64,000 nucleotides of DNA from Gemmatimonadetes bacterium SCN 70-22 (lineage in GTDB: Bacteria > Gemmatimonadota > Gemmatimonadetes > Gemmatimonadales > Gemmatimonadaceae): contig MEDZ01000025.1 in the NCBI GenBank assembly GCA_001724275.1, forward strand, positions 1 to 64,000, written 5' to 3'. The position numbers were made by a program, and so were the translations under genes. The notes under the pieces were generated by a model that was not told where the DNA came from, ran no database searches, and saw nothing but the letters and a program-made list of their open reading frames with translations. This document shows, piece after piece, positions 4,629-61,334 of the stretch. Every line of letters starts with the position of its first letter. Position 1 is the first letter of the stretch.

Positions 4629-5895
4629 GGCGGGCCAACTCTCGCCACCCGATATCTCGGCGGAGCACCTTGTCGGCAAATTGGACGGACTCGGCTGCTA
4701 CCAGGCTGAGCCGTTGGGCCTCGCGGAAGGTCGAGGCCACCGCCGTCACCGCGAAGACCCGCCCGCCAGCGGTCACCAACGCCCCGTCATCTCGGCGCCT
4801 GGTTGCGGCGTGGAAGGCGACGACTCCTTCGGGGAGCGGTGGGAGCACGATGGGTGCTCCGGTCGTCGGCGCCTCGGGGTAGCCCGGAGAGGCGACCACC
4901 GTCGTCACCGCGGCGCCACCACGGACCGTGACGGTGGGAGCATCGGCCAGCCCCCCCTCCACCGAGGCGCCGATCAGGAGCGGCAGCAGATCGCCCTCGA
5001 TCAGTGGGAGGACGACCTGGGTCTCGGGGTCGCCGAATCGGCAGTTGAACTCGACCACCCTGGGACCATCGCCCGTGAGCATCAACCCGACGTACAGGAG
5101 CCCCCGGAAGGGCGTCCCGCGGCGCCGCATCTCGGCGAGCGTTGGCGCCACGATGCGCTCGCTGGTCGCCCGCAGCACGCCCGCGGTGGCGACCGCAACG
5201 GGGGCGTATGCACCCATCCCACCGGTGTTGGGGCCGGCATCCCCCTCCAGCAGGCGCTTGTGGTCCTGTGCGCCCGGCAGGAGCACGAAGTGCTCCCCAT
5301 CCGTGATGGCAAAGATGGAGAGCTCCTCACCCTCCATGAACTCCTCGACCAGCACCTCCGCCCCGGCGGCGCCGAACGCCCCACCGAACATCCGGTCTAT
5401 CGCCTCCTCGGCCTCGGAAATCGTGGCAGCGACGACCACCCCCTTTCCCGCCGCCAGTCCACTGGCCTTGATGACCACCGGAGCACCACCGGCGCGAACC
5501 GCGCGCTTGGCCGACTCCGCATCGCCGTGCCAGGTTGCCCGCGCGGTCGGTACCCCCGCCGCGAGCATGACCTCCTTGGCGAAGCGCTTCGACGCCTCCA
5601 GCTGGGCCGCCGCCCTCGACGGGCCGAACACCCTGAAGCCCGCGTCGCGCAGCGCGTCGCTGACCCCCGCCGCCAGAGGGGCCTCGGGGCCGATGATCAC
5701 CAGCGACGGGTGCTCCGCACGCGCCAATGCGACCACGGCCGCCGGGTCGGTCACGGTGACCGGAGCGCAGCGGCCGAGCGAATCGATCCCCGGATTTCCC
5801 GGAGCGGCTACCAGATCGAGCGATGGGTCATCCTGCTTGAGCTTCCATGCGATGGCGTGCTCACGCCCGCCACTCCCCAGGAGGAGAATCTTCAC
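4612..5895 (-). CDS. purD: phosphoribosylamine-glycine ligase (GAR synthetase)
   Basis: Catalyses ATP-dependent joining of glycine to 5-phosphoribosylamine, the second step of de novo purine synthesis. The 427-residue product begins KILLLGSGGREHAIAWKL, typical of PurD, and has the ATP-grasp core including GPNTGGMGAYAP and EFNCRFGDPETQ. The GTG start at 5895 overlaps the stop of the M48 peptidase gene (GTGA), and its 3' end overlaps the mutM start by 17 bp. It therefore sits in a four-gene overlapping operon with M48 peptidase, mutM and the UvrC-like nuclease. A much longer in-frame extension upstream is only the antiparallel-free shadow of the peptidase gene. Confidence 0.97.
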   Translation of the reverse strand: MKILLLGSGGREHAIAWKLKQDDPSLDLVAAPGNPGIDSLGRCAPVTVTDPAAVVALARAEHPSLVIIGPEAPLAAGVSDALRDAGFRVFGPSRAAAQLEASKRFAKEVMLAAGVPTARATWHGDAESAKRAVRAGGAPVVIKASGLAAGKGVVVAATISEAEEAIDRMFGGAFGAAGAEVLVEEFMEGEELSIFAITDGEHFVLLPGAQDHKRLLEGDAGPNTGGMGAYAPVAVATAGVLRATSERIVAPTLAEMRRRGTPFRGLLYVGLMLTGDGPRVVEFNCRFGDPETQVVLPLIEGDLLPLLIGASVEGGLADAPTVTVRGGAAVTTVVASPGYPEAPTTGAPIVLPPLPEGVVAFHAATRRRDDGALVTAGGRVFAVTAVASTFREAQRLSLVAAESVQFADKVLRRDIGWRELARRAGAS

Positions 5896-6872
5896 GTCCC
5901 CGACGATCCCTTGAATGCGGTGTTGAAGGCGTCGCGCGCCCGGTCGAAGACTCCGCTCAGCGAGTCCATCGCCCCGCGCGCCTGCTCCCCATAATAACCG
6001 ACCGCATCCTCGATGTCCGACGACAGGGGCGGGGCACTCGCGTCGCTCCGGCGCCGGTAGTCCCCCGCCAGGATCCGCTCGTACGCCCCGGACTGCACCC
6101 AGCGCTGCAACTCCGCCGCCCGCACCGTCCCGAACGGATGCGTGCGGAACGCGGTGTTGATCACCTGCCAGACCTTGTCGGCCAGGTCGCCCTGTGCCTC
6201 GTAGTGCGACGCCTGCTCGAGGAAGGCATCCACCGAGAGCGAATCGTCGAGCTCCTTCCCCCCCGCCATCTTCATGAAGGTGCTCGCGGTGACCCGGAAG
6301 TCCTGCGTCGCGAGGAGCCCGGCGCGATCGGCCGAGAACTCTGCCTTCCGGTACCACTCCATCAGGGCCAGCTGGAAGGGGAGGAGGGCGAGGCCGGCGA
6401 GGAAGGGGAGGTTGTTGATCCCGATGGTGAGGATGATGATCGCGATCGTCGTGTAGGTCGTGTGCCCGCTCATGATGTGGCCGAGCTCGTGCCCGAGGAT
6501 GTCGCGTCGCTCCTCGTCGTCCAGCAGCTCCATGAGCCCCGAGTTGAGCACGATGAACGGCTTCTCGAACCCCACGGCCGCCGCGTTGACCAGCGGCGTC
6601 TGCGTGACGTAGAGCTCGGGCACCTCCTTCCAGTCCAGGGTCGCCAGGACCTCCTGGTACTGCGCCCAGAGCCGGGGACGCTGGGCGGGGCCCACCCGGA
6701 CCGCATTGGCCAGGAAGAGCTGGCGCACGCCGCGCTCCCCGAAGTACGCGGCCACCTTGCGCACCACCTGGTCGAAGCCCGGGATCGCGCGAAGGGTGTT
6801 GAGCGCCGCGCGATCGGCGGGGTGCTCCCAGGCGGCGGAGGAGATGTCGGTGAGGACGATGCGCTCGGGCAT
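5892..6872 (-). CDS. M48-family zinc metalloprotease
   Basis: A 326-residue peptidase. The zinc-binding HELGH motif is at residues 128-132, and the third ligand is in EFSADRAG, about 55 residues further on. Between them are one or two hydrophobic segments (about 143-175), as in membrane-associated M48 enzymes such as HtpX-like proteins. There is no cleavable signal peptide, and the N-terminal 85 residues precede the catalytic core. The C-terminal third is soluble and of unknown role. It is the first gene of the operon with purD-mutM-UvrC-like nuclease and ends in a 4-bp overlap with purD. The substrate cannot be predicted. Confidence 0.9.
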   Translation of the reverse strand: MPERIVLTDISSAAWEHPADRAALNTLRAIPGFDQVVRKVAAYFGERGVRQLFLANAVRVGPAQRPRLWAQYQEVLATLDWKEVPELYVTQTPLVNAAAVGFEKPFIVLNSGLMELLDDEERRDILGHELGHIMSGHTTYTTIAIIILTIGINNLPFLAGLALLPFQLALMEWYRKAEFSADRAGLLATQDFRVTASTFMKMAGGKELDDSLSVDAFLEQASHYEAQGDLADKVWQVINTAFRTHPFGTVRAAELQRWVQSGAYERILAGDYRRRSDASAPPLSSDIEDAVGYYGEQARGAMDSLSGVFDRARDAFNTAFKGSSGT

Positions 6873-49317: not shown

Positions 49318-51249
49318 TTACGACTTCTTGCTGTCGTCGACGATCTCGTAATCGGCCTCGACGACGTCCTCGGCCTTGCCGGTGCCGGCTTCCGCCCCGC
49401 CCGCCGCGGGCTCACCCGCCGCCCCCCCCTCGGCCTGCTGCTGCGCGTAGAGCGAGCGGCCGGCCTCCTGGTACGCGGTGGACAGCTCCTCCAGCGCCGC
49501 CGTGATCTCTGCCATGTCGTCGCCCCGGTGCGCCTTGCGGGCACGCTCCACGGCGCCGTCCAGGCGCGACTTCATCTCCGGCGCGAGCCGTTCGGCCCAC
49601 TCCTTCGAGTTCTTCTCCACCTCGTAGGAGAGCGAGTCCAGGCGGTTCCGCGTGTCGATCTCCTCGCGGCGCTTCTTGTCCTCCGCCTGGTTCTTCTCCG
49701 CGTCCTTCACCATGCGGTCGATCTCGTCCTTCGAGATGCCGCTCGAGGCCTCGATGCGGATCTTCTGCTCCTTGCCGGTCGCCTTGTCCTTGGCCGAGAC
49801 GTGGAGGATGCCGTTGGCGTCGATGTCGAAGCCGACCTCGACCTGCGGCATGCCGCGCGGGGCGGGGGGAATCCCCGTGAGCTGGAACTTTCCGACCGTC
49901 TTGTTGTGGATGGCCAGCTCGCGCTCGCCCTGCAGGACGTGGATCTCGACCGTCGTCTGGTTGTCGTCGGCCGTGGAGAAGACGTCGGTCTTGCGCGTCG
50001 GGATCGTCGTGTTGCGCGGGATGAGCACCGTCATCACGCCGCCTAACGTCTCGATGCCGAGCGAGAGCGGGGTGACGTCGAGCAGGAGGACGTCCTTCTG
50101 CTCGCCGGTGAGGACGGCGCCCTGGACGGCGGCGCCGATGGCCACGACCTCGTCCGGGTTGACCCCCTTGTTGGGCTCCTTGCCGAAGAAGTCCTTCACC
50201 GCGGCCTGGATCTTCGGGATGCGCGTCGAGCCGCCGACGAGCAGGACCTCGTCGATCTCCGACGGCTTGAGCCCGGCGTCGGTGAGCGCCTTCTTCATCG
50301 GCTCGAGCGTCCGCTGGATGAGGTCATCCACCAGCTGCTCGAACTTGGCGCGCGTCAGCTGGTAGTTGAGGTGCTTGGGCCCCGACTGGTCGGCGGTGAT
50401 GAAGGGGAGGTTGATGTCGGTCGACATGGTCGACGACAGCTCGCACTTCGCCTTCTCGGCCGCTTCCTTGAGGCGCTGGAGCGCCATGGGATCCTTGGAC
50501 AGGTCGATCCCCTGGTCGCGCTTGAACTCCGTCACGAGCCAGTCGATGACGCGCTGGTCGAAGTCGTCGCCCCCCAGGTGCGTGTCGCCGTTGGTGGACT
50601 TCACCTCGAACTGGCGCGTCCCCTCGACGTCGTAGAGCTCGAGGACGGAGATGTCGTACGTCCCGCCGCCGAGGTCGAAGACGGCCACCTTCTCGTCCTT
50701 CTTCTTGTCGAGGCCGTAGGCGAGCGCCGCCGCGGTGGGCTCGTTGATGATGCGCAGGACGTCGAGCCCCGCGATCTTCCCCGCGTCCTTGGTGGCCTGG
50801 CGCTGCGAGTCGTTGAAGTAGGCCGGGACGGTGACGACGGCCTTGGTGACCGTCTGCCCCAGGTAGTCTTCGGCGGTCTGCTTCATCTTCTGCAGGATCA
50901 TCGCCGAGATCTCGGGTGGGGTGAAGCGCTTGCCCCCCACTTCCACGGCCGCGAGGTCGTTGGGGCCCGATTGGACCGCGTACGGCACCCGCTTCGACTC
51001 CTCGGTCACTTCGCTCGCCTTGCGCCCCATGAAGCGCTTGATCGAGAAGACGGTGTTCTTGGGATTGGTGACGGCCTGACGCTTGGCGATCTGGCCAACG
51101 AGGCGCTCGCCGTCCTTCGTGAAGCCGACCACCGAGGGGGTGGTACGCCCACCCTCCGAGTTGGGGATCACGACCGGGTCGCCCCCTTCCATGACCGCGA
51201 CGACCGAGTTGGTGGTCCCCAGGTCGATGCCAATAACCTTGTCTGCCAT
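49318..51249 (-). CDS. dnaK: chaperone DnaK (Hsp70)
   Basis: A 643-residue Hsp70. The N-terminal ATPase domain ([68 protein letters not shown]) and the substrate-binding domain are complete. The C-terminus is Gly/Ala-rich and ends [16 protein letters not shown] 51249 gives the family N-terminus [11 protein letters not shown]. It is divergent from the rhomboid gene over 183 bp. I see no CIRCE element there. grpE and dnaJ are not adjacent. Confidence 0.97.
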
Positions 51250-51432: not shown

Positions 51433-52203
51433 ATGATCCCGCTCAGCGACGAGAACCCGACGCTCCACACGCCCTACATGACCTACGTCATCCTCGGGGC
51501 GATCCTGGCCACGTGGGTGCTGGTGCAGGGGGCGGGGCTCGACTCGGCGACCCTGGCCGCGACGGTCTGCAATCTCGGGATGGTACCGGGCGAGCTGACC
51601 CACCGCGCCCCGTTGGGGTCGGGGATCCCCATCGGCCCGGGGATGGCGTGCATCGTGGACGACTACCCGATCAACGTCCTCACCCCCGTCACCTCGATGT
51701 TCCTGCACGGGAGCTGGATCCACCTGCTGGGCAATTCGCTCTACCTCTGGGTCTTCGGGAACAACGTCGAGGACAGCATGGGGCACCTGCGCTTCCTGGC
51801 GTTCTACCTGCTGTGCGGGCTGGCTGCCGCGGGATCCCACATCCTCCTCGACCCGACCTCCCCGATCCCGACGGTTGGGGCGTCGGGGGCCATCTCGGGG
51901 ATCATGGGGGCGTACCTCCTGCTCTATCCGAACGTGCGCGTGAAGATGCTGATCCCGATCTTCCTGTACCCGTGGATCACCCACATGCGGGCGTGGATCG
52001 TCCTGATCTGGTGGTTCGGGCTGCAGGTCCTGAGCGGACTCCCGCAGCTGATGTCGCTAAGGCGGGAGGTGTCGGGGGGAGTGGCGGTCTGGGCGCACGT
52101 GGGGGGCTTCGTGGCGGGGGTGGTCCTGATTCGGCTGTTCGAGGACCGCGAGCTGGTGCGACGTCGGCGTGCGGTGGCCGACGCGCGCGGCACCTGGGGG
52201 TGA
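51433..52203 (+). CDS. rhomboid-family intramembrane serine protease
   Basis: A 256-residue protein with six to seven membrane segments. The catalytic serine is in [13 protein letters not shown] and the histidine in [11 protein letters not shown], with the [10 protein letters not shown] loop upstream that carries the oxyanion asparagine. All rhomboid active-site elements are intact. It is the first gene of a plus-strand run that continues with the two microcompartment vertex genes and deoC, 49 bp away, but a functional link to them is not evident. Confidence 0.9.
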
Positions 52204-52252: not shown

Positions 52253-52540
52253 ATGCATCTCGCGCGCGTCCTCGGACGCCTCGTATCGACCGTGAAGCAG
52301 GAGACGCTGGCGGCGATTCCGCTGCAGTGGATCCAGCCGATCTCCGCGTCCGGTGAAGCGGCGGGGAGAGCGCTCGTGGCGGTGGACCGCATCGGAGCCG
52401 GACCGGGTGAGGTGGTGGTCTACATCACCTCGCGCGAGGCGGCGATGACGCTCGACGAGCCGTTCGCGGCGGTCGACGCCGGGATCGTCGCCAAGGTGGA
52501 CTGGTGCAACCTGGGACAGGAGCGGACGCTCGATGCGTAG
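52253..52540 (+). CDS. bacterial microcompartment vertex protein, EutN/CcmL family (first copy)
   Basis: A 95-residue BMC-P protein. It begins MHLARVLGRLVSTVKQETL, with the PLQWIQPISASG strand and the ALVAVDRIGAGPGEVVVYI hairpin of the pentamer fold, then GIVAKVDWCNL. Pentamers of this family cap the twelve vertices of metabolosome or carboxysome shells. ATG 52253 is set by the conserved start; a longer frame upstream lacks similarity. There is no obvious ribosome binding site, which suggests coupling to the upstream transcript. The partner copy follows 28 bp later. Confidence 0.88.
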   Translation: MHLARVLGRLVSTVKQETLAAIPLQWIQPISASGEAAGRALVAVDRIGAGPGEVVVYITSREAAMTLDEPFAAVDAGIVAKVDWCNLGQERTLDA

Positions 52541-52568
52541 CGCGCTGTCGGGACGATAAGGGGGAGCG

Positions 52569-52865
52569 GTGTTCCTGGCCCGCGTGGTTGGCGACGTGGT
52601 GGCGACCCATCGGCATGGCGAGCTGGGGGGGCGGAAGCTCCTCCTGGTCCGCCGTCTCACGGCGGAGGGGGCTGAGGAGGGGGGCGAGGTGATCGCCCTC
52701 GACGTGATTGGGGTCGGGGTGGGGGAGCGGGTACTGGTGGTGCAGGAGGGGGGGGCGGCGCGTGCGCTCTCCGGGAGTGCGCGCATCCCCGCGCAGGCCG
52801 TGGTGGTGGGCGTGGTGGAGCGGGTCGATCTGGCAGATGGCGAGGTCCCGGAGGAGGGACGGTGA
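52569..52865 (+). CDS. bacterial microcompartment vertex protein, EutN/CcmL family (second copy)
   Basis: A 98-residue paralogue: MFLARVVGDVVATHRHGELGGRKLLLV, then VIALDVIGVGVGERVLVVQEG and AVVVGVVERVDL. The two copies share the fold but only part of the sequence, so this is an old duplication, and shells often use several vertex types. GTG 52569 follows an AAGGGGGAG ribosome binding site. Its TGA overlaps the GTG of deoC (GTGA), which ties shell and cargo gene by translational coupling. Confidence 0.88.
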   Translation: MFLARVVGDVVATHRHGELGGRKLLLVRRLTAEGAEEGGEVIALDVIGVGVGERVLVVQEGGAARALSGSARIPAQAVVVGVVERVDLADGEVPEEGR

Positions 52866-53836
52866 CAGACAGGCTACAGGAGTTGGCGCGGGAGATCGCG
52901 CGGGAACTGGCGATGGGGGATTCGGCGAGGGGCGCTTCGCCGCGGGGGGCCCCCCCCGCGAAGCACGATAGCGCATCACCCTCCTCCACCCCCCACCACT
53001 CCATCGCCGACCGAATCGTTTCCGCAGCATCGCGTCCTGCGGCACCGGTCGGCCCCCCGCCGGGGGTCACCTTCGTGCGCGAGAACGCACGCATCGCCGA
53101 CTTCATCGACCACACCCTCCTCAAGGCCGAGGCGACCTCGCGGGAGATCGACAAGCTCTGCGACGAGGCCAAGGAGCACCGGTTCGCCGCCGTCTGCGTC
53201 AACCCGGTGTGGGTGCGCCGCGCCGCCAATCGCCTCGGGGGGACATCGGTGCAGGTGGCGACGGTGATCGGCTTCCCGCTGGGGGCGAACACGCCGGAGG
53301 TCAAGCGCTACGAGGCGGCGCAGGCGGTGGCGCATGGCGCGACCGAGCTCGACATGGTCGTCGCCCTCGGGCCGCTCAAGAGCGGCGACTGGAACCACGT
53401 CGCCGATGACATCGCCGCGGTGGTGGAGGGGGCGGCGGGGACGCTTGTGAAGGTGATCATCGAATCGGCCGCGCTGTCGCCCGTCGAGATCATAAAGGCG
53501 TGCGCGATCGCGAAGGAGATGCGGGCCCAGTACGTGAAGACCTCGACCGGCTTTCACGCCGCTGGCGGGGCGAGCGCCGAGGCGGTGGCGCTGATGCGCC
53601 TCGTGGTCGGGGACAGCATGGGGGTGAAGGCGTCGGGCGGGGTACGCGACTGCGAGGCCGCGCTGAAGATGATCGTGAACGGTGCCACCCGTATCGGGAC
53701 GTCGAGCGGGGTCTCGATGGCCAAGTGTCTCGGGCAGGGACCGCTGCCGCTGAACGACCTCCTCTCCCTGGCCTCGCAGCACTCCACCGGGTGCGTGACG
53801 TGTGCGCAGGGCGGTGGCGCCCCCGCCCTCTACTGA
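52862..53836 (+). CDS. deoC: deoxyribose-phosphate aldolase with N-terminal encapsulation-like helix
   Basis: A 324-residue class I aldolase that splits 2-deoxyribose-5-phosphate into glyceraldehyde-3-phosphate and acetaldehyde. The Schiff-base lysine K226 (YVKTSTGF), the second lysine K256 (GVKASGGVRD) and D164 (ELDMVV) are present. The catalytic domain begins only near residue 70. Before it lie an amphipathic helix (LQELAREIARELAMG, residues 5-19) and a Ser/Pro/Ala/Gly linker, the layout of cargo encapsulation peptides for microcompartments. The linker is encoded over a G6-C8 tract (52944-52957). The gene overlaps the second vertex gene and ends before a terminator. Confidence 0.92.
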   Translation: MTDRLQELAREIARELAMGDSARGASPRGAPPAKHDSASPSSTPHHSIADRIVSAASRPAAPVGPPPGVTFVRENARIADFIDHTLLKAEATSREIDKLCDEAKEHRFAAVCVNPVWVRRAANRLGGTSVQVATVIGFPLGANTPEVKRYEAAQAVAHGATELDMVVALGPLKSGDWNHVADDIAAVVEGAAGTLVKVIIESAALSPVEIIKACAIAKEMRAQYVKTSTGFHAAGGASAEAVALMRLVVGDSMGVKASGGVRDCEAALKMIVNGATRIGTSSGVSMAKCLGQGPLPLNDLLSLASQHSTGCVTCAQGGGAPALY

Positions 53837-54041: not shown

Positions 54042-54659
54042 GTGGCATTCCGCCTGATTCCCCGTGACGAGGGGTTCTTCGACCTCTTCAACGAGCTCTC
54101 TTCCAAGCTCATCACTTCCGCGGCGCTCCTCCGCGACCTGTTCACCCAGCCCGAGCGTGTCGACGAGCTCGTGGCGGCCATCAAGGACGTGGAGCACGAG
54201 GCCGACCATATCGCCTACGAGGTCAGCACCCGCCTCGACAAGAGCTTCATCACGCCGCTCGACCGCGAGGACATCCACCGCCTGACGCAGGAGCTGGACA
54301 ACGTCGTCGACCTGATCGACGGAACGGCGCGACGGGCGCGCATGTTCCACCTGACCGAGACGCGGGAGCCGGCGCGCAAGCTGTGCGAGCTCGTGGTCGA
54401 GTCGGTGCGCCAGATCGAGAAGGCGGTCGTGGAGATCAAGAATCCGCGCGCGGTGGCGGTGAGCACGCGCGAGGTGAAGCGGCTGGAGGCCGAGGGCGAC
54501 ACCATCTACCACAATGCGATGGGGGAGCTGTTCAAGGGGCGCCCCGACCCGCTCGACGTCATGAAGTGGAAGGAGATCTACGACACGATCGAGGAGACGC
54601 TGGACCGGTGCCAGACGGTGGCGATCGTGCTCGAGAGCATCTCCCTCAAGAATTCGTAG
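54042..54659 (+). CDS. DUF47-family PhoU-like protein, Pit accessory
   Basis: A 205-residue all-helical protein of the DUF47/YkaA family, distant relatives of PhoU. It begins FRLIPRDEGFFDLFNELSS and contains the paired helices KDVEHEADHIAYEVSTRLDKSFITPLDREDIHRL, a family hallmark. The gene starts with GTG and ends 3 bp before the pit gene. DUF47 genes are almost always paired with Pit transporters, and probably regulate phosphate transport. Confidence 0.9.
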   Translation: MAFRLIPRDEGFFDLFNELSSKLITSAALLRDLFTQPERVDELVAAIKDVEHEADHIAYEVSTRLDKSFITPLDREDIHRLTQELDNVVDLIDGTARRARMFHLTETREPARKLCELVVESVRQIEKAVVEIKNPRAVAVSTREVKRLEAEGDTIYHNAMGELFKGRPDPLDVMKWKEIYDTIEETLDRCQTVAIVLESISLKNS

Positions 54660-54662
54660 GCC

Positions 54663-55697
54663 GTGGTCACCTACATCGTCGCGATCATCGCGATCGCGTT
54701 CGTTTTCGACTTCATCAACGGCTTCCACGACTCGGCCAACTCGATCGCCACGATCGTCGGGACGCGCGTCCTGAGTCCGCTGACGGCCGTCGTCTGGGCC
54801 GCGTTCTTCAACTTCGTGGCTGCCTTCACGGTGGGGACGGCGGTGGCCAAGACGATCGGGAAGGGGATGATCGACATCTCGGTCGTCACGCCGAACGTGA
54901 TCCTCGGCGGGTTGCTGGGGGCGATCGTCTGGAACCTGATCACCTGGTGGTTCGGGCTGCCGAGCAGCTCGTCGCACGCCCTCCTGGGCGGCTACGCCGG
55001 GGCGGCGACGGCCAAGGCGGGGTCCGGGGCGATCATCGTCGCCGGGTGGACCAAGACGGTCATCTTCATCTTCCTGTCGCCGATCATCGGGATGGTGTCG
55101 GGGTTCCTGCTGATGACGGCGATCTACTGGACCTTCCGGAACGTCTCGCCGCGTCGGGTGGACTCGATCTTCCGCAAGGTGCAATTGGGGAGCGCCGCCC
55201 TGTTCTCGCTGTCGCACGGGGCCAACGATGCGCAGAAGACCATGGGAATCATCGTGGGGCTCCTCGTCTCGAGCAGCGCGGCCTTCGCCGGCGAGACCGG
55301 GTGGCTGCGGCACCTGTACCTCCCCGACGGCGACCACGTCCCCCTGTGGGTGGAGATGGGGGCCTACAGCGCCATCGCGCTGGGGACGCTCTTTGGGGGG
55401 TGGCGGATCGTCCCCACGATGGGGAGTCGCATCACCAGGCTTCGCCCGGTGGGGGGGAGCGCGGCGGAGACGGCGGGCGCGTTCACCATCCTCCTGGCCA
55501 CGATGTTCGGCATTCCGGTGAGCACCACGCACACCATCACCGGGGCGATCATGGGGGTGGGGGCGACCTCGCGCCTGAGCGCGGTGCGCTGGGGGATCGC
55601 CGGCCGCATCGTGTGGGCGTGGATCATGACCATTCCGGCGGCGGCGGCGATATCGGCGCTGTGCCTCGTGCTCCTCGAGCGGGTGCATCCGCTGTAG
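54663..55697 (+). CDS. pit: low-affinity inorganic phosphate transporter (PiT family)
   Basis: A 344-residue membrane protein with about ten segments. Both inverted-repeat signature motifs are present: GFHDSANSIATIVGTRVL in the first half and SLSHGANDAQKTMGII in the second. GIPVSTTHTITGAIMGVG is the matching C-terminal motif. It imports metal-phosphate with protons. GTG 54663 is 3 bp after the DUF47 stop, so the two form one unit. ppk1 follows about 205 bp later. Confidence 0.95.
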   Translation: MVTYIVAIIAIAFVFDFINGFHDSANSIATIVGTRVLSPLTAVVWAAFFNFVAAFTVGTAVAKTIGKGMIDISVVTPNVILGGLLGAIVWNLITWWFGLPSSSSHALLGGYAGAATAKAGSGAIIVAGWTKTVIFIFLSPIIGMVSGFLLMTAIYWTFRNVSPRRVDSIFRKVQLGSAALFSLSHGANDAQKTMGIIVGLLVSSSAAFAGETGWLRHLYLPDGDHVPLWVEMGAYSAIALGTLFGGWRIVPTMGSRITRLRPVGGSAAETAGAFTILLATMFGIPVSTTHTITGAIMGVGATSRLSAVRWGIAGRIVWAWIMTIPAAAAISALCLVLLERVHPL

Positions 55698-55838
55698 TCC
55701 GCGACGGTCGCGCGGCGCGGGGAACCCTCGGGGCGCCCCGGCGCCTCGCGGGCGACCACTCCGGCGCTTGGGCGCGCCCTTCCCGGCTGGACGCGCCCTC
55801 GGCCGGCGTGGCACCTTTGTGACACGCCGGTCGCTGTT

Positions 55839-55860
55839 CCGTCGTTAGCTTGAACGACGG
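55839..55860. promoter_or_regulatory. perfect 8-bp inverted repeat before ppk1
   Basis: CCGTCGTT-AGCTTG-AACGACGG, centred about 53 bp before the ppk1 ATG. It could be an operator or a leader hairpin. I do not see a clear Pho box, and promoter boxes are not evident in the 205-bp gap. Confidence 0.45.
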
Positions 55861-55902
55861 AACCCTTCGCGCGATGACCGCGCGGCCGCAGCCCCCGCCT
55901 TC

Positions 55903-58113
55903 ATGATCGAACACGCCGTCGCGCCCGGCCTCTTCCTGAACCGCGAGCTCTCCTGGCTCGAGTTCAACGCGCGCGTGCTGCACGAGGCGGTCGACGAGCG
56001 CACCCCGCTGCTCGAGCGCCTCAAGTTTCTGGCCATCTTCAGCACCAACCTGGACGAGTTCTACCAGGTGCGGGTGGCAGGGCTCCGGCGCCAGGTCGCG
56101 GCCGGGGTGCAGCAGGCGCCGCCCGACGGGATGTCGCCGGCCGCGCAGCTGGAGGCCATCGACGGCAAGGTGCGCGAGCTCGTGGCCCGGCAGCACGCGT
56201 GCTTCCATCAGGTGCTCCTGCCGGAGCTCGAGCGCCGGGGGATCCGCCTCGTCGAGATGCACGAGCTCACGCCTGACGAGTCGGTGGCGCTCAATGGCTT
56301 CTTCGAGCGCGAGGTCTTTCCCGTGCTCACGCCGCTCGCGGTCGACCCCGGGCACCCCTTTCCGTACATCTCCAACCTGTCCATCTCGCTGGCGGTGGAG
56401 TTGCGCGACCCGGCGCGCGGGGGGGAGCACTTTGCCCGGCTCAAGGTGCCGCGCAGCCTCCCGCGCTGGATTCCCATCGGGCGTCCCAATCACTTCGTCC
56501 CCCTGGAGCGCCTGATCGGCGCCCAGCTGGGGACGCTCTTCCCCGGGATGGAGATCCTGGGGTGGCACGTCTTCAAGATCACGCGCTACTCCGACCTCGA
56601 CGTCCCCGCGGCCGACGAGCCCGAGGATCTCCTGGCGACCATCGAGGAGCAGGTCTTCGCGCGACGGTTCGGCGAGGTGGTGCGCCTCGAGGTGCAGAGC
56701 GGGATGCCGCCGCACATCCGCCAGCTGCTCCTCGACGAGCTGCGCGAGGTGAGCGATCCCGAGGTCCTCCCGCTCACCGACCGGGAAGTGCACGAGCCGG
56801 GTCCGCTCCTCGAACTGGGCGACCTGCTGTCGCTGGCCTCGCTCGACGTTCCCGAGTTGCGCGACCCGCCGTTCACCCCGCTCACGCCGCCGGAGCTGCG
56901 CGACACGGCGCGCCCGATCTTCGACGTCATCCGCGAGCGCGACGTGCTCGTGCACCACCCGTTCGAGTCGTTTGCGACCTCGGTGGAGCGGTTCTTCGAG
57001 GCGGCGGCGCAGGACGAGCACGTCCTGGCCATCAAGACCACGCTGTACCGCACGTCGGGCGACAGCACCATCGTGCGCACGCTGACCGACGCGGCACAGC
57101 GGGGCAAGCAGGTCGCGGTGCTGGTGGAGCTGCGGGCGCGCGGCGACGAGGCCAACAACATCTCGTGGGCGCGCACGCTGGAGGACTTCGGCGTCCACGT
57201 GGCGTACGGGCTGTCGGGGCTCAAGACGCACGCGAAGGTCGCCCTCGTCGTGCGCCGCGAGGCCGACGGCATTCGCCGCTACGTGCACATCGGGACGGGG
57301 AACTACAACTCCCGGACGGCGCGCGTCTACACGGACTTCGGCTTCTTCACCTGCAACCCCGACATCGGCGCCGACATCAGCGAGGTGTTCAACCTCCTCA
57401 CCGGCTTCTCGCGCCAGCGCGAGTATCGCAAGCTCCTGGTGGCGCCGGCGAACATGAAGGCGCGTTTCCTCGACCTCATCGGGCGCGAGGCCGCCCACGC
57501 CCGCGCCGGCCGCCGCGCGCGCATCGTCGCCAAGATCAACGCCCTCGTGTCACCCGACATAATCGCGGCGCTCTACGACGCATCGGACGCCGGCGTCGAG
57601 ATCGACCTGATCGTGCGCGGCATCTGCTGTTTGCGCCCGCAGCTGCCGGGGGTGAGCGAGCGGATCCGCGTGCGCAGCATCGTCGGGCGCTTCCTCGAGC
57701 ACTCGCGGCTCTTCTACTTCGCCAATGGCGGGGCCGAGGAGTACTACGTGGGGTCGGCCGACTGGATGCCGCGCAACCTGGAGCGGCGGGTGGAGGTCGT
57801 GGTCCCGGTCGAGGATCCGGTGATGCGGCAGCGGATGTTCAGCCTGATCGAGACGTGGCTGGCCGACAACCGCCAGGCCTGGGAGCTGCATCCCGACGGG
57901 CGCTACGTGCAGAGCGCGCCGGGCGAGGCCGACGAGCTGGCGACGCATCGCAAGCTGCTGCGTGACCCGTGGGGGCTCGATCGCGCCGAGTCGCGCTACA
58001 CGACGGCCGAGATCCGCGCCCTCGTCCCCCCGCCTCCCGCGCTGGACGCGGACGGCAACGGCCACGCGGCGTTGGGCGCTCGCCCCAAGGGAAAGCGGGC
58101 CACCAGGCGTTAG
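55903..58113 (+). CDS. ppk1: polyphosphate kinase 1
   Basis: A 736-residue enzyme that polymerises the ATP gamma-phosphate into polyphosphate. The N-terminus FLNRELSWLEFNARVLHEA is diagnostic. The autophosphorylated histidine is H443 in LKTHAKVALV, and H600 lies in FLEHSRLFYF. The phospholipase-D-like halves are complete. The C-terminal 25 residues are low-complexity and basic. It faces ppx across a strong hairpin, so synthesis and degradation genes are convergent neighbours. Confidence 0.96.
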   Translation: MIEHAVAPGLFLNRELSWLEFNARVLHEAVDERTPLLERLKFLAIFSTNLDEFYQVRVAGLRRQVAAGVQQAPPDGMSPAAQLEAIDGKVRELVARQHACFHQVLLPELERRGIRLVEMHELTPDESVALNGFFEREVFPVLTPLAVDPGHPFPYISNLSISLAVELRDPARGGEHFARLKVPRSLPRWIPIGRPNHFVPLERLIGAQLGTLFPGMEILGWHVFKITRYSDLDVPAADEPEDLLATIEEQVFARRFGEVVRLEVQSGMPPHIRQLLLDELREVSDPEVLPLTDREVHEPGPLLELGDLLSLASLDVPELRDPPFTPLTPPELRDTARPIFDVIRERDVLVHHPFESFATSVERFFEAAAQDEHVLAIKTTLYRTSGDSTIVRTLTDAAQRGKQVAVLVELRARGDEANNISWARTLEDFGVHVAYGLSGLKTHAKVALVVRREADGIRRYVHIGTGNYNSRTARVYTDFGFFTCNPDIGADISEVFNLLTGFSRQREYRKLLVAPANMKARFLDLIGREAAHARAGRRARIVAKINALVSPDIIAALYDASDAGVEIDLIVRGICCLRPQLPGVSERIRVRSIVGRFLEHSRLFYFANGGAEEYYVGSADWMPRNLERRVEVVVPVEDPVMRQRMFSLIETWLADNRQAWELHPDGRYVQSAPGEADELATHRKLLRDPWGLDRAESRYTTAEIRALVPPPPALDADGNGHAALGARPKGKRATRR

Positions 58114-58131
58114 GCGCCTGGCCGCGGCGCT

Positions 58132-58164
58132 CCGGGTGCCCCGGGGAGGGCACGGGGCACCCGG
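58132..58164. terminator. bidirectional hairpin between ppk1 and ppx
   Basis: CCGGGTGCCCCG and CGGGGCACCCGG form a perfect 12-bp stem around a 9-nt loop between the convergent stops. Lack of a T-tract fits other strong hairpins in this window. Confidence 0.65.
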
Positions 58165-58183
58165 GGCGCGCGGGGCACGCGCG

Positions 58184-59818
58184 TCACTCGCCGTCGTCGC
58201 CGTCCCGCGCCTCGACCACGGAACCGTCGGGGGACACGATCTCCACCGGGGTCCCGGCCAGCTCGGAGAGGAGGGCCGACTTCCGGCTCGCCCCCCAGAG
58301 CTCCAGCCGCAGGACGCGCGCGCGAGGGTCGGGGACGGCGGTGAGGCGCAACGCACGGTCGGTCCACCGGACCTTCACCCGTTGCACCGCGCCCACGTGC
58401 CCGCGGTCGAAGCCGTCCGCCACCCGCAGGATCGCCGACAGGCGCGCGATGCGGTCGCGCGTGGCGCGGTCCAGCCGCCCGAAGGTGGGGTGCTTCCGCC
58501 GGGGCGCGGCCCCGCGGTGATACCGGGCGACGTTCGCCACCACCACCTGCTCCACCGGTGACATCCCCAGGAGATCGGCGTGCAGGATGAGGTGGTACGA
58601 GTGCTTGTGGTGCTTGTCGTAGTTGATGTGGTAGCCCACGTCGTGCAGCAGGGCGGCGTCGGCCAGCGTCTGCCGGTCGCCGGCGCCGCACCCCAGCCGC
58701 GCGCCCACGGCGTCGAACAGCTGCAACGCCAGCTGCCGGACGTGTTGCGCGTGCGGCGCCTCGTAGTGGCATCGCTCGGCGAACGTGCGCACCGAGCGCT
58801 CGCGCGCCTCGCCCCGGTCGGCGGGAATGGTGGGGACGTGGGCGCTCTCCAGCAGGAGCCCCTCGCGGATGCCGTAGGCGGAGACTTGCAGCTCGCGGGA
58901 CTCGATGCGCGCCATCACCTCGGCCGCCACCACCAGGCCGGCCAGGATGATGTCCGATCGCTCGACGTTGAGCCCGCGGACATGCGCCCGCTCCTCGGGC
59001 GAGCACGCCCGCAGGAGGTCGATGATGTGCTCCAGCTCCTCGCGCGGGACGCGTGTCCCGTGCACGCGTCCGGCCGCGCTGGGCGATCCCTGCCGGTACA
59101 GGAAGATCCCCGCCAGGTTGGTGAAGGTCCCCCCGGAGCAGATCAGCTGCGCCCCTCGCCAGTCGCGCAGCGGGAGCGCCTTGCGGATCTCGTCGCGCAC
59201 GGCCTGCCGAAGCGTGCGCACGTCCTTGCGGCTGGGGGCCAGCCCGAGGTACTGCTCCGTCATGCGGATGGCCCCGAACGGGAGGGAGACGAGACGCTCC
59301 ACCAGCCCGTCGGCGGCCATCGCCAGCTCGAGGGACCCCCCGCCCACGTCCATCACGACCGAACGCCCCCGCGCCAGGTCGAAGTGGGCGAGGGCCGAGC
59401 GGTACGCCAGGCGCGCCTCCTCCTCGCCGTGCAGGAGGCGGATGCGCAGCCCGGTCTCGCGCCGGACGAGGTCGAGGAAGGTCCGGCCGTTCGCGGCGTC
59501 ACGGACGGCGCTGGTGGCGACCGCTTCCACCTTGGCCACGCCGTACTGGCGCGCGAGCGTCGCCATGCGCTGCAGCGCCTCGAGGGCGTGCCCCATGGCG
59601 TCCTCGCCGAGCCGGCCGGCCCGGTCGAGTCCCGTCCCCAGGCGCGGCGCCGCCTTCATCTCGTCGAGGACGCGGATGCGTCCCTCGGGCGAGACGTCGG
59701 CGATGATCTGCCGGATGGAATTGCTCCCGACGTCGATCGCCGCCAGCCGCACCCCCTCGCCGGGTTGCGGCGCCGCGGCGCGGAGCGGGAGGACGCGCGG
59801 ACGGACGGGAGCGCTCAT
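58184..59818 (-). CDS. ppx: exopolyphosphatase / guanosine pentaphosphatase (Ppx/GppA) with HD domain
   Basis: A 544-residue actin-fold phosphatase that trims polyphosphate or converts pppGpp to ppGpp. The Ppx/GppA core has AAIDVGSNSIRQIIADV, EAVATSAVRDAANG and VVMDVGGGSLEL. A C-terminal HD-type domain (LADAALLHDVGYHINYDKHHKH) is typical of the long form. It is convergent with ppk1 and 3 bp downstream of phoU, so the cell can coordinate phosphate import and polyphosphate breakdown. Confidence 0.92.
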   Translation of the reverse strand: MSAPVRPRVLPLRAAAPQPGEGVRLAAIDVGSNSIRQIIADVSPEGRIRVLDEMKAAPRLGTGLDRAGRLGEDAMGHALEALQRMATLARQYGVAKVEAVATSAVRDAANGRTFLDLVRRETGLRIRLLHGEEEARLAYRSALAHFDLARGRSVVMDVGGGSLELAMAADGLVERLVSLPFGAIRMTEQYLGLAPSRKDVRTLRQAVRDEIRKALPLRDWRGAQLICSGGTFTNLAGIFLYRQGSPSAAGRVHGTRVPREELEHIIDLLRACSPEERAHVRGLNVERSDIILAGLVVAAEVMARIESRELQVSAYGIREGLLLESAHVPTIPADRGEARERSVRTFAERCHYEAPHAQHVRQLALQLFDAVGARLGCGAGDRQTLADAALLHDVGYHINYDKHHKHSYHLILHADLLGMSPVEQVVVANVARYHRGAAPRRKHPTFGRLDRATRDRIARLSAILRVADGFDRGHVGAVQRVKVRWTDRALRLTAVPDPRARVLRLELWGASRKSALLSELAGTPVEIVSPDGSVVEARDGDDGE

Positions 59819-59821
59819 CGG

Positions 59822-60531
59822 TCAGGACGCGGCCGCCGGCGCCCGCTCGCCGGCTTCGGCGTGGTGCTTGATCTGCTTCCCCTCCGCCAGGTACACCGCG
59901 TCCTCGCCGATGTTGGTGGCCAGGTCGGCGACCCGCTCGAGGTTGCGGCTGACGAGAAGGAGCTCCAGCGACGGGTTGATCGTCCGGGCGTCGGCCATCA
60001 TGTGCGTGAGCAGGATGCGGAAGAGCGAGTTGTGCAGCGCATCGACCGCGTCGTCCGCCTTGCACACCTCGCGTCCCAGCATCCCGTCGCCGCGGATGAA
60101 TGCGTCCAGCGCCTCGCCCAGCATCCGGCGCGCGCGCCGCGCCATGTCCTCGATCTCGGGATTGAGGATGATGGGCGAGCGGAGCGCGATCAGGCGCAAG
60201 GCCGACTGGGCGATGTTCACCGCATGGTCGCCCACCCGCTCGAGGTCGCTCGACACCTTGATGGCGCTGATGATGAAGCGCAGGTCGCGCGCCATCGGCT
60301 GCTGCAGGGCCAGCAGCTGCACCGCCAGCGACTCCACCTCGTTCTCGAGCAGGTCGATCTCGCGGTCACCCTCGATCACGACCTCTGCCTTCTCCCGGTC
60401 CTGCGTCAGCAGGGCGTCGACCGAGAGGTCCACCAGCTCCTCGGCGCGCGCCGACATGTCGAGCAGGCGCTGCTTGAGCGTCGCCAGCTGCTCGTGGAAA
60501 TGGCGGAATCCGCTGGCCGTCTCGGCGGGAC

Positions 60532-60535
<4 letters not shown>
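59822..60535 (-). CDS. phoU: phosphate transport system regulator PhoU
   Basis: A 237-residue helical protein with two PhoU three-helix repeats. Each carries the metal-binding signature, [27 protein letters not shown] in the first and [27 protein letters not shown] in the second. It mutes the Pst system and Pho signalling when phosphate is high. The start overlaps the stop of the second pstB (ATGA). No PhoR/PhoB pair is in the window. Confidence 0.95.

Positions 60536-61334
<799 letters not shown>

Follow-up and report, generated by a model that had tools for sequence, protein, structure and literature searches.

A satellite locus of two vertex genes and deoC as a proposed part of a dispersed deoxyribose microcompartment in Gemmatimonadota

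Introduction

Fragmented microcompartments are already known in Gemmatimonadetes from the 2021 catalogue of Sutter et al. (PMC8217296), which lists the types FRAG1-7 without an obvious aldehyde-producing enzyme and with unknown function, possibly to be revealed only by correlation with an environmental factor. In that catalogue the BMC-P triplet of FRAG comes from the grey and orange clades and one further clade. The same catalogue describes satellites of two vertex genes plus an aldolase in HO genomes and places compartments containing DeoC in the SPU type. Loci with DeoC and RpiB were reported by Axen et al. 2014 (PMC4207490) from single-cell genomes that include Gemmatimonadetes. In the open-access literature, no report was found that links nucleosides to FRAG, or to any compartment of Gemmatimonadota other than the SPU loci in these two catalogues.

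The window considered here, which is the whole 64,000-nucleotide stretch of DNA that was analysed, holds two BMC-P vertex genes followed by deoC and belongs to a genome (4.70 Mb, 84 contigs, 99.98% complete) that resembles several described systems in part. As in FRAG (PMC8217296), a type reported in Gemmatimonadetes and with an aldehyde dehydrogenase near some shell genes, the shell genes lie at several distant places and include a BMC-P triplet, the assignment resting on dispersal over three contigs and on the three BMC-P genes and not on a subtype; unlike in FRAG, the vertex genes are linked to a DeoC with a predicted encapsulation peptide (EP) and to deoB-cdd. The type I satellite of HO genomes (PMC8217296) likewise has two BMC-P genes and an aldolase, and some HO-genome aldolases carry an EP-like N-terminal extension, whereas HO shells include BMC-Tdp, of which none occurs in this genome, and the vertex triplet is here split over two operons. 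The likeness to SPU lies in the DeoC aldolase (PF01791), the acetaldehyde dehydrogenase and the proposed use of DNA breakdown products; in SPU, however, the BMC locus has RpiB adjoining DeoC, which is not the case here, and the dehydrogenase of an SPU-like one-place locus in other Gemmatimonadota (L043) is only about 30% identical. An acetylating aldehyde dehydrogenase, PduL, BMC-H and BMC-P are shared with the core of Eut and Pdu metabolosomes, but the aldehyde source would be an aldolase, and no signature enzyme for ethanolamine or propanediol was recognised at the loci. The best reading is that the set fits FRAG with SPU-type chemistry, DeoC probably supplying the enzyme that FRAG had been missing. 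We propose, with a probability of about 0.8, that one catabolic microcompartment for the deoxyribose of DNA-derived nucleosides is encoded in three dispersed parts, among them the window locus. The three operons, the predicted encapsulation peptide and similar linkages in other phyla all suggest a single pathway, and the question of FRAG function becomes testable by growth, localisation and gene removal.

Results and Discussion

The satellite locus and its neighbours

The first vertex gene, P2a (EutN/CcmL, PF03319), extends over 52253..52540 of the plus strand from an ATG start and encodes 95 aa; the second, P2b, of the same family, occupies 52569..52865 (+) with a GTG start and encodes 98 aa. 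The gene for deoxyribose-phosphate aldolase, deoC, follows at 52862..53836 (+), also from a GTG start (324 aa), and the sequence GTGA at 52862..52865 (+) joins the stop of P2b to the start of deoC. Both small ORFs, whose assignment to PF03319 the earlier note had named as a point on which its reading could fail, score far above the curated Pfam cut-off of 25 bits: P2a at 74.2 bits (E=1.2e-20, full-length match) and P2b at 83.0 bits (E=2.2e-23). The best solved relative of P2a is the vertex protein 5v74/6mzx, and the profile of P2b matches solved vertex proteins, 4i7a at 1.1e-19. Orthologues of P2a in 13 other loci are 53-80% identical, and those of P2b 46-85%. The deoC product is assigned to PF01791 (Pfam) and to the TIGR00126 deoC model (NCBIfam) at 262 bits against a cut-off of 117, and Lys226 (VKTSTGF), Lys256 (VKASGG) and Asp164 are invariant in the alignment. 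The ORFs and these three models confirm the single unit of two EutN/CcmL genes and deoC, with its GTGA overlap, that the earlier note described.

Its account of the flanks also stands. A divergent dnaK (49318..51246, minus strand), the conserved neighbour that marks the syntenic site in tblastn maps, is followed by a rhomboid-family gene (51433..52203, +; PF01694) ending 49 bp before P2a, and DUF47/phosphate-transporter genes, read from the ORFs, lie beyond deoC. The rhomboid gene is a host gene, a constant neighbour in relatives with or without vertex genes, and is not regarded as a compartment component. The ORFs 3' of deoC (54042-60820) read as a phosphate and polyphosphate cluster of DUF47, Pit-type transporter, Ppk-like, Ppx/GppA-like and PhoU-like genes.

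Shell and enzyme genes elsewhere in the genome

The genome contains exactly three PF03319 and two PF00936 genes, on three contigs. On contig C53, BMC-H1, BMC-H2, an aldehyde dehydrogenase and PduL (PF06130) share one strand; on contig C23, alr, deoB (phosphopentomutase, TIGR01696 at 420 bits) and cdd (cytidine deaminase) are followed by the third and last vertex gene, P1. Finding only vertex genes, the earlier note had supposed either that the rest of the shell is encoded elsewhere or that the compartment is reduced. The former proved correct, and profile searches of the genome recovered all the expected families (PF00936 twice, PF03319 three times, an acetylating aldehyde dehydrogenase and PduL); of the latter, what stands is the absence of BMC-T from the genome, whose only two PF00936 genes are single-domain, but both hexamer genes exist, on another contig. 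A vertex-only compartment lacking hexamers was rejected on the same two genes. The window is a satellite BMC locus in that its shell genes are PF03319 only, with PF00936 on C53, and since no single locus in the genome has both H and P there is no strict main locus. All three vertex genes adjoin deoC or cdd/deoB, so that every vertex gene stands beside a gene of deoxynucleoside breakdown.

The best model for the C53 dehydrogenase is the acetylating acetaldehyde dehydrogenase TIGR02518, at 549 bits, below the cut-off of 620. This CoA-acylating, TIGR02518-like enzyme and the phosphotransacylase (PF06130) adjoin H1-H2, the gene content of a metabolosome. The window deoC is the only DeoC match in the genome, and the candidate of a second, housekeeping DeoC was rejected for want of any other match. 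Two RpiB genes (PF02502) are on C15 and C21, off the shell contigs, and the nucleoside phosphorylase gene is unlinked (C28). The shell genes have no other recognised signature enzyme as a neighbour, and neither an alcohol dehydrogenase nor another enzyme for recycling NAD+ was seen next to the shell loci. Acetate kinase (ackA) was not found in a search of the genome; the two PTA_PTB matches are a true Pta (L206) and a malic-enzyme/PTA fusion, on contigs C4 and C21.

BMC-H2 (L006:8811-9284, on C53) ends in a conserved tail of some 50 residues, LKVVELRxxARxxxxFPxKGRxxARAGRDELLAxFR, which AlphaFold predicts as small, short helices. Pfam returned no match to the tail even at E=5, and a suspected SAP/Rho-N-like fold found no support.

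Conservation across Gemmatimonadota

Conservation was assessed in 298 Gemmatimonadota genomes, a drawn and not exhaustive sample with several fragmented assemblies. PF03319 occurs in 25 of these and PF00936, over its cut-off, in 22. The module P2a-P2b-deoC was found at 14 loci, 12 of them with both rhomboid and dnaK; G096 has dnaK alone and G103 has neither. The arrangement is not due to chance, because the order is kept in 14 genomes and in 13 is beside dnaK/rhomboid. The trio is thus conserved in relatives and accompanied by PF00936 shell proteins in the genome, two things on whose failure the earlier note would have fallen, and the neighbourhood comparison it had suggested is in its favour. 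The module cdd-P1 was found at 15 loci (with deoB in 12) and H1-H2-dehydrogenase-PduL at 12 loci, and the three modules are together in ten genomes; genes missing from G083, G257 and G177 may be assembly gaps. PduL occurs in 14 of the 298 genomes, each with a split-type shell set, and no full-length relative of the C53 dehydrogenase was found in three shell-less genomes. Against two close relatives the vertex genes have dN/dS values of 0.11-0.23; purifying selection acts on them and on the aldolase barrel. Genes, families, synteny, the predicted peptide and co-occurrence are all features read in the sequences themselves.

Nine genomes have a second architecture, with most compartment genes at one place. 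The one such locus that was annotated, L043 (G020), has the order RpiB-DeoC-?-H-P-dehydrogenase-T-P-P and matches SPU. At L043:6296-6934, between DeoC and BMC-H, a 212-aa protein has no Pfam match.

Vertex genes beside deoC in other phyla

A contig scan with P2b as query yielded 63 loci. A P2b-like gene lies shortly upstream of deoC in records of KSB1, Neomarinimicrobiota, Caldithrix and Zixiibacteriota, and also in Planctomycetota, Riflebacteria and one Deltaproteobacteria record. The DeoCs outside Gemmatimonadota mostly have a short helix-like N-terminus; in the KSB1 group a Cys-rich linker comes next. Seven loci have a pyrimidine-nucleoside-phosphorylase-like gene after deoC, TIGR02644 being above its cut-off in the one tested, and deoB is downstream in the Riflebacteria locus L199. 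In 13 loci, from KSB1, Calditrichota and relatives, a phosphohexomutase-family gene (best model Arch_GlmM) is 5' of the vertex gene; our guess is that its product acts on deoxyribose-1-phosphate.

These linkages bear on the possibility that the vertex genes at the two host operons are mainly separately regulated tuners of the shell and not markers of pathway membership. Tuning of permeability has been proposed as a general role of satellites (PMC8217296), but genes for tuning only could sit anywhere, whereas all three vertex genes adjoin deo or nucleoside-salvage genes and other phyla again have a vertex gene beside deoC and a nucleoside phosphorylase. We regard this explanation as unlikely and as compatible in part with a role of the vertex genes in one pathway.

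Predicted encapsulation peptide of DeoC

The N-terminal region of the window DeoC is MTDRLQELAREIARELA. In the AlphaFold model, a helix at residues 2-18 is followed by a largely disordered segment to about residue 62 (pLDDT <50 at residues 19-46 and 50-62) and then by a confident barrel. The segment encoded by 52862..52921 (+), MTDRLQELAREIARELAMGD, is predicted to be an encapsulation peptide from its helix, conservation, hydrophobic moment and dN, and about residues 21-75 (52922..53086, +), of low pLDDT and high dN, would be a flexible linker between peptide and barrel. A short amphipathic helix with a flexible linker is the arrangement by which encapsulation peptides are defined in PMC8217296. 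The hydrophobic moment of the peptide is in the top 0.2% of windows from the same genome, and the helix is retained in shell-linked DeoCs of Gemmatimonadota. Compared with G089, dN was 0.10 for the first 20 codons, a value that reflects few changes, 0.76 for the linker and 0.08 for the barrel; across comparisons the linker gave 0.22 and 0.76 against 0.04-0.08 for the barrel. The peptide has low dN and the linker is relaxed.

A profile built from 13 DeoC helices was scored against a null of 3717 windows from other proteins of the genome, and it ranked the N-terminus of the PduL encoded on C53 above all 3717. Twelve PduLs were scored; for 11 of these no more than 12 of the 3717 windows did as well, and for the remaining one 29 did. 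The C-terminus of the dehydrogenase has a comparable short tail, FDVARVVEDFL, which is only weakly amphipathic (moment test 0.04).

Host operons in shell-less relatives

Relatives with no shell keep dnaK/rhomboid-deoC and mazG/alr-deoB-cdd, and the vertex genes are absent. In the family, the 30 deoB loci examined comprise seven with P1, 22 with alr-deoB-cdd and no P1, and one cut by a contig end; in shell-less genomes, 15 of 20 deoC loci retrieved are beside dnaK or rhomboid with no vertex gene between. These shared operons, the DeoC peptide and the place of the third vertex gene beside alr-deoB-cdd go beyond the earlier note. Genome G225 has no match to PF03319, PF00936 or PF06130, and its DeoC begins with MSEYEIDDVARAVVADF, as compared with MNEREIDELARAVVERL in the shell-bearing G271 of the same genus code (non-ATG starts read as M). 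The G225 N-terminus, which was observed to be EP-like (L094, near 5360-6219), reads as a putative relic of a targeting peptide. The peptide-like N-termini of shell-less DeoCs score only modestly (18 of 3717 windows do as well as that of G225, 31 as that of G198 and 28 as that of G090), so this reading is drawn mainly from G225 set beside G271. The DnaK tree, which is weakly resolved, requires at least five changes of shell status; the count gives no direction, and we infer shell loss from G225 and the shared operon sites. Shell-less relatives are a natural comparison for the loss of an organelle, in which the enzymes remain, the vertex genes are removed cleanly and an EP-like N-terminus can persist on DeoC. 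In the DeoC tree, end branches tend to be longer in shell-less genomes than in shell-linked DeoCs, as if constraint had relaxed after shell loss.

The same relatives supply the main argument that DeoC is cytosolic and merely co-transcribed with the vertex genes, the compartment then enclosing another aldehyde-producing enzyme. The position of deoC is independent of the shell, because they keep it at the identical dnaK/rhomboid site; yet the N-terminal helix is conserved by purifying selection and recurs in PduL, it is missing from several shell-less DeoCs (for example G199, G104 and G118), no other signature enzyme accompanies the shell genes, and the link between vertex genes and deoC recurs in several other phyla. 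A cytosolic DeoC is, on this balance, quite improbable. Several observations count against the proposed deoxyribose microcompartment as such, namely that RpiB, the SPU hallmark, is present but off the shell contigs, that the nucleoside phosphorylase gene is unlinked, that no NAD+ recycler was noticed at the loci, that the dehydrogenase tail is only weakly amphipathic and that host operons exist without shells. The vertex genes could thus be passengers at host operons, although throughout the phylum they stay together. That the system is reduced or decaying, with vertex proteins that lack a working shell and are perhaps free pentamers or regulators, is very hard to credit: the window has no hexamer gene, the genome no BMC-T, and shell status changed repeatedly among relatives, but C53 has intact genes for both hexamers, the dehydrogenase and PduL, dN/dS of the vertex genes is 0.11-0.23 and all three modules are kept in ten genomes.

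Proposed pathway

Each step of the proposed deoxyribose pathway is supplied by known chemistry of the enzyme families. The shell would be built from the hexamers H1 and H2 (C53) and the vertex proteins P1 (C23), P2a and P2b (window), with no trimers, and would hold as cargo DeoC and PduL, each through an N-terminal peptide, and the acetylating aldehyde dehydrogenase with its short C-terminal tail. In the cytosol, cytidine deaminase, pyrimidine-nucleoside phosphorylase and DeoB would yield deoxyribose-5-phosphate, which would enter via the hexamer pores and be cleaved by DeoC, the shell retaining the acetaldehyde. The dehydrogenase would convert acetaldehyde to acetyl-CoA with formation of NADH, and PduL would convert acetyl-CoA to acetyl-phosphate, freeing CoA. 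Exported acetyl-phosphate would be returned to acetyl-CoA by cytosolic Pta, a step that is proposed because no acetate kinase was found; an energy-yielding last step by that enzyme was rejected on the same ground. Assembly of the compartment, encapsulation, flux and regeneration of NAD+ are what we infer from the gene content.

On a wider scale, we give roughly even odds to the view that many fragmented BMCs of Gemmatimonadota and FCB-group phyla are one ancient organelle of deoxynucleoside catabolism with a vertex gene in each deo-type operon, and that the operons outlast the shell when it is lost, in some cases with a vestigial targeting peptide still on the aldolase.

Two further loci were noted among Gemmatimonadota. 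The one-place compartment locus L047 (G130) adjoins rhomboid-dnaK, the neighbourhood of the satellite but inverted, which would reflect either one site used twice or a rearrangement. A different locus, L087:5560-10616 (G096), encodes a two-domain BMC protein (EutL-like by eye), a BMC-H with a long C-terminal tail, Pta, an aldehyde dehydrogenase and a ParA-type ATPase that may position compartments.
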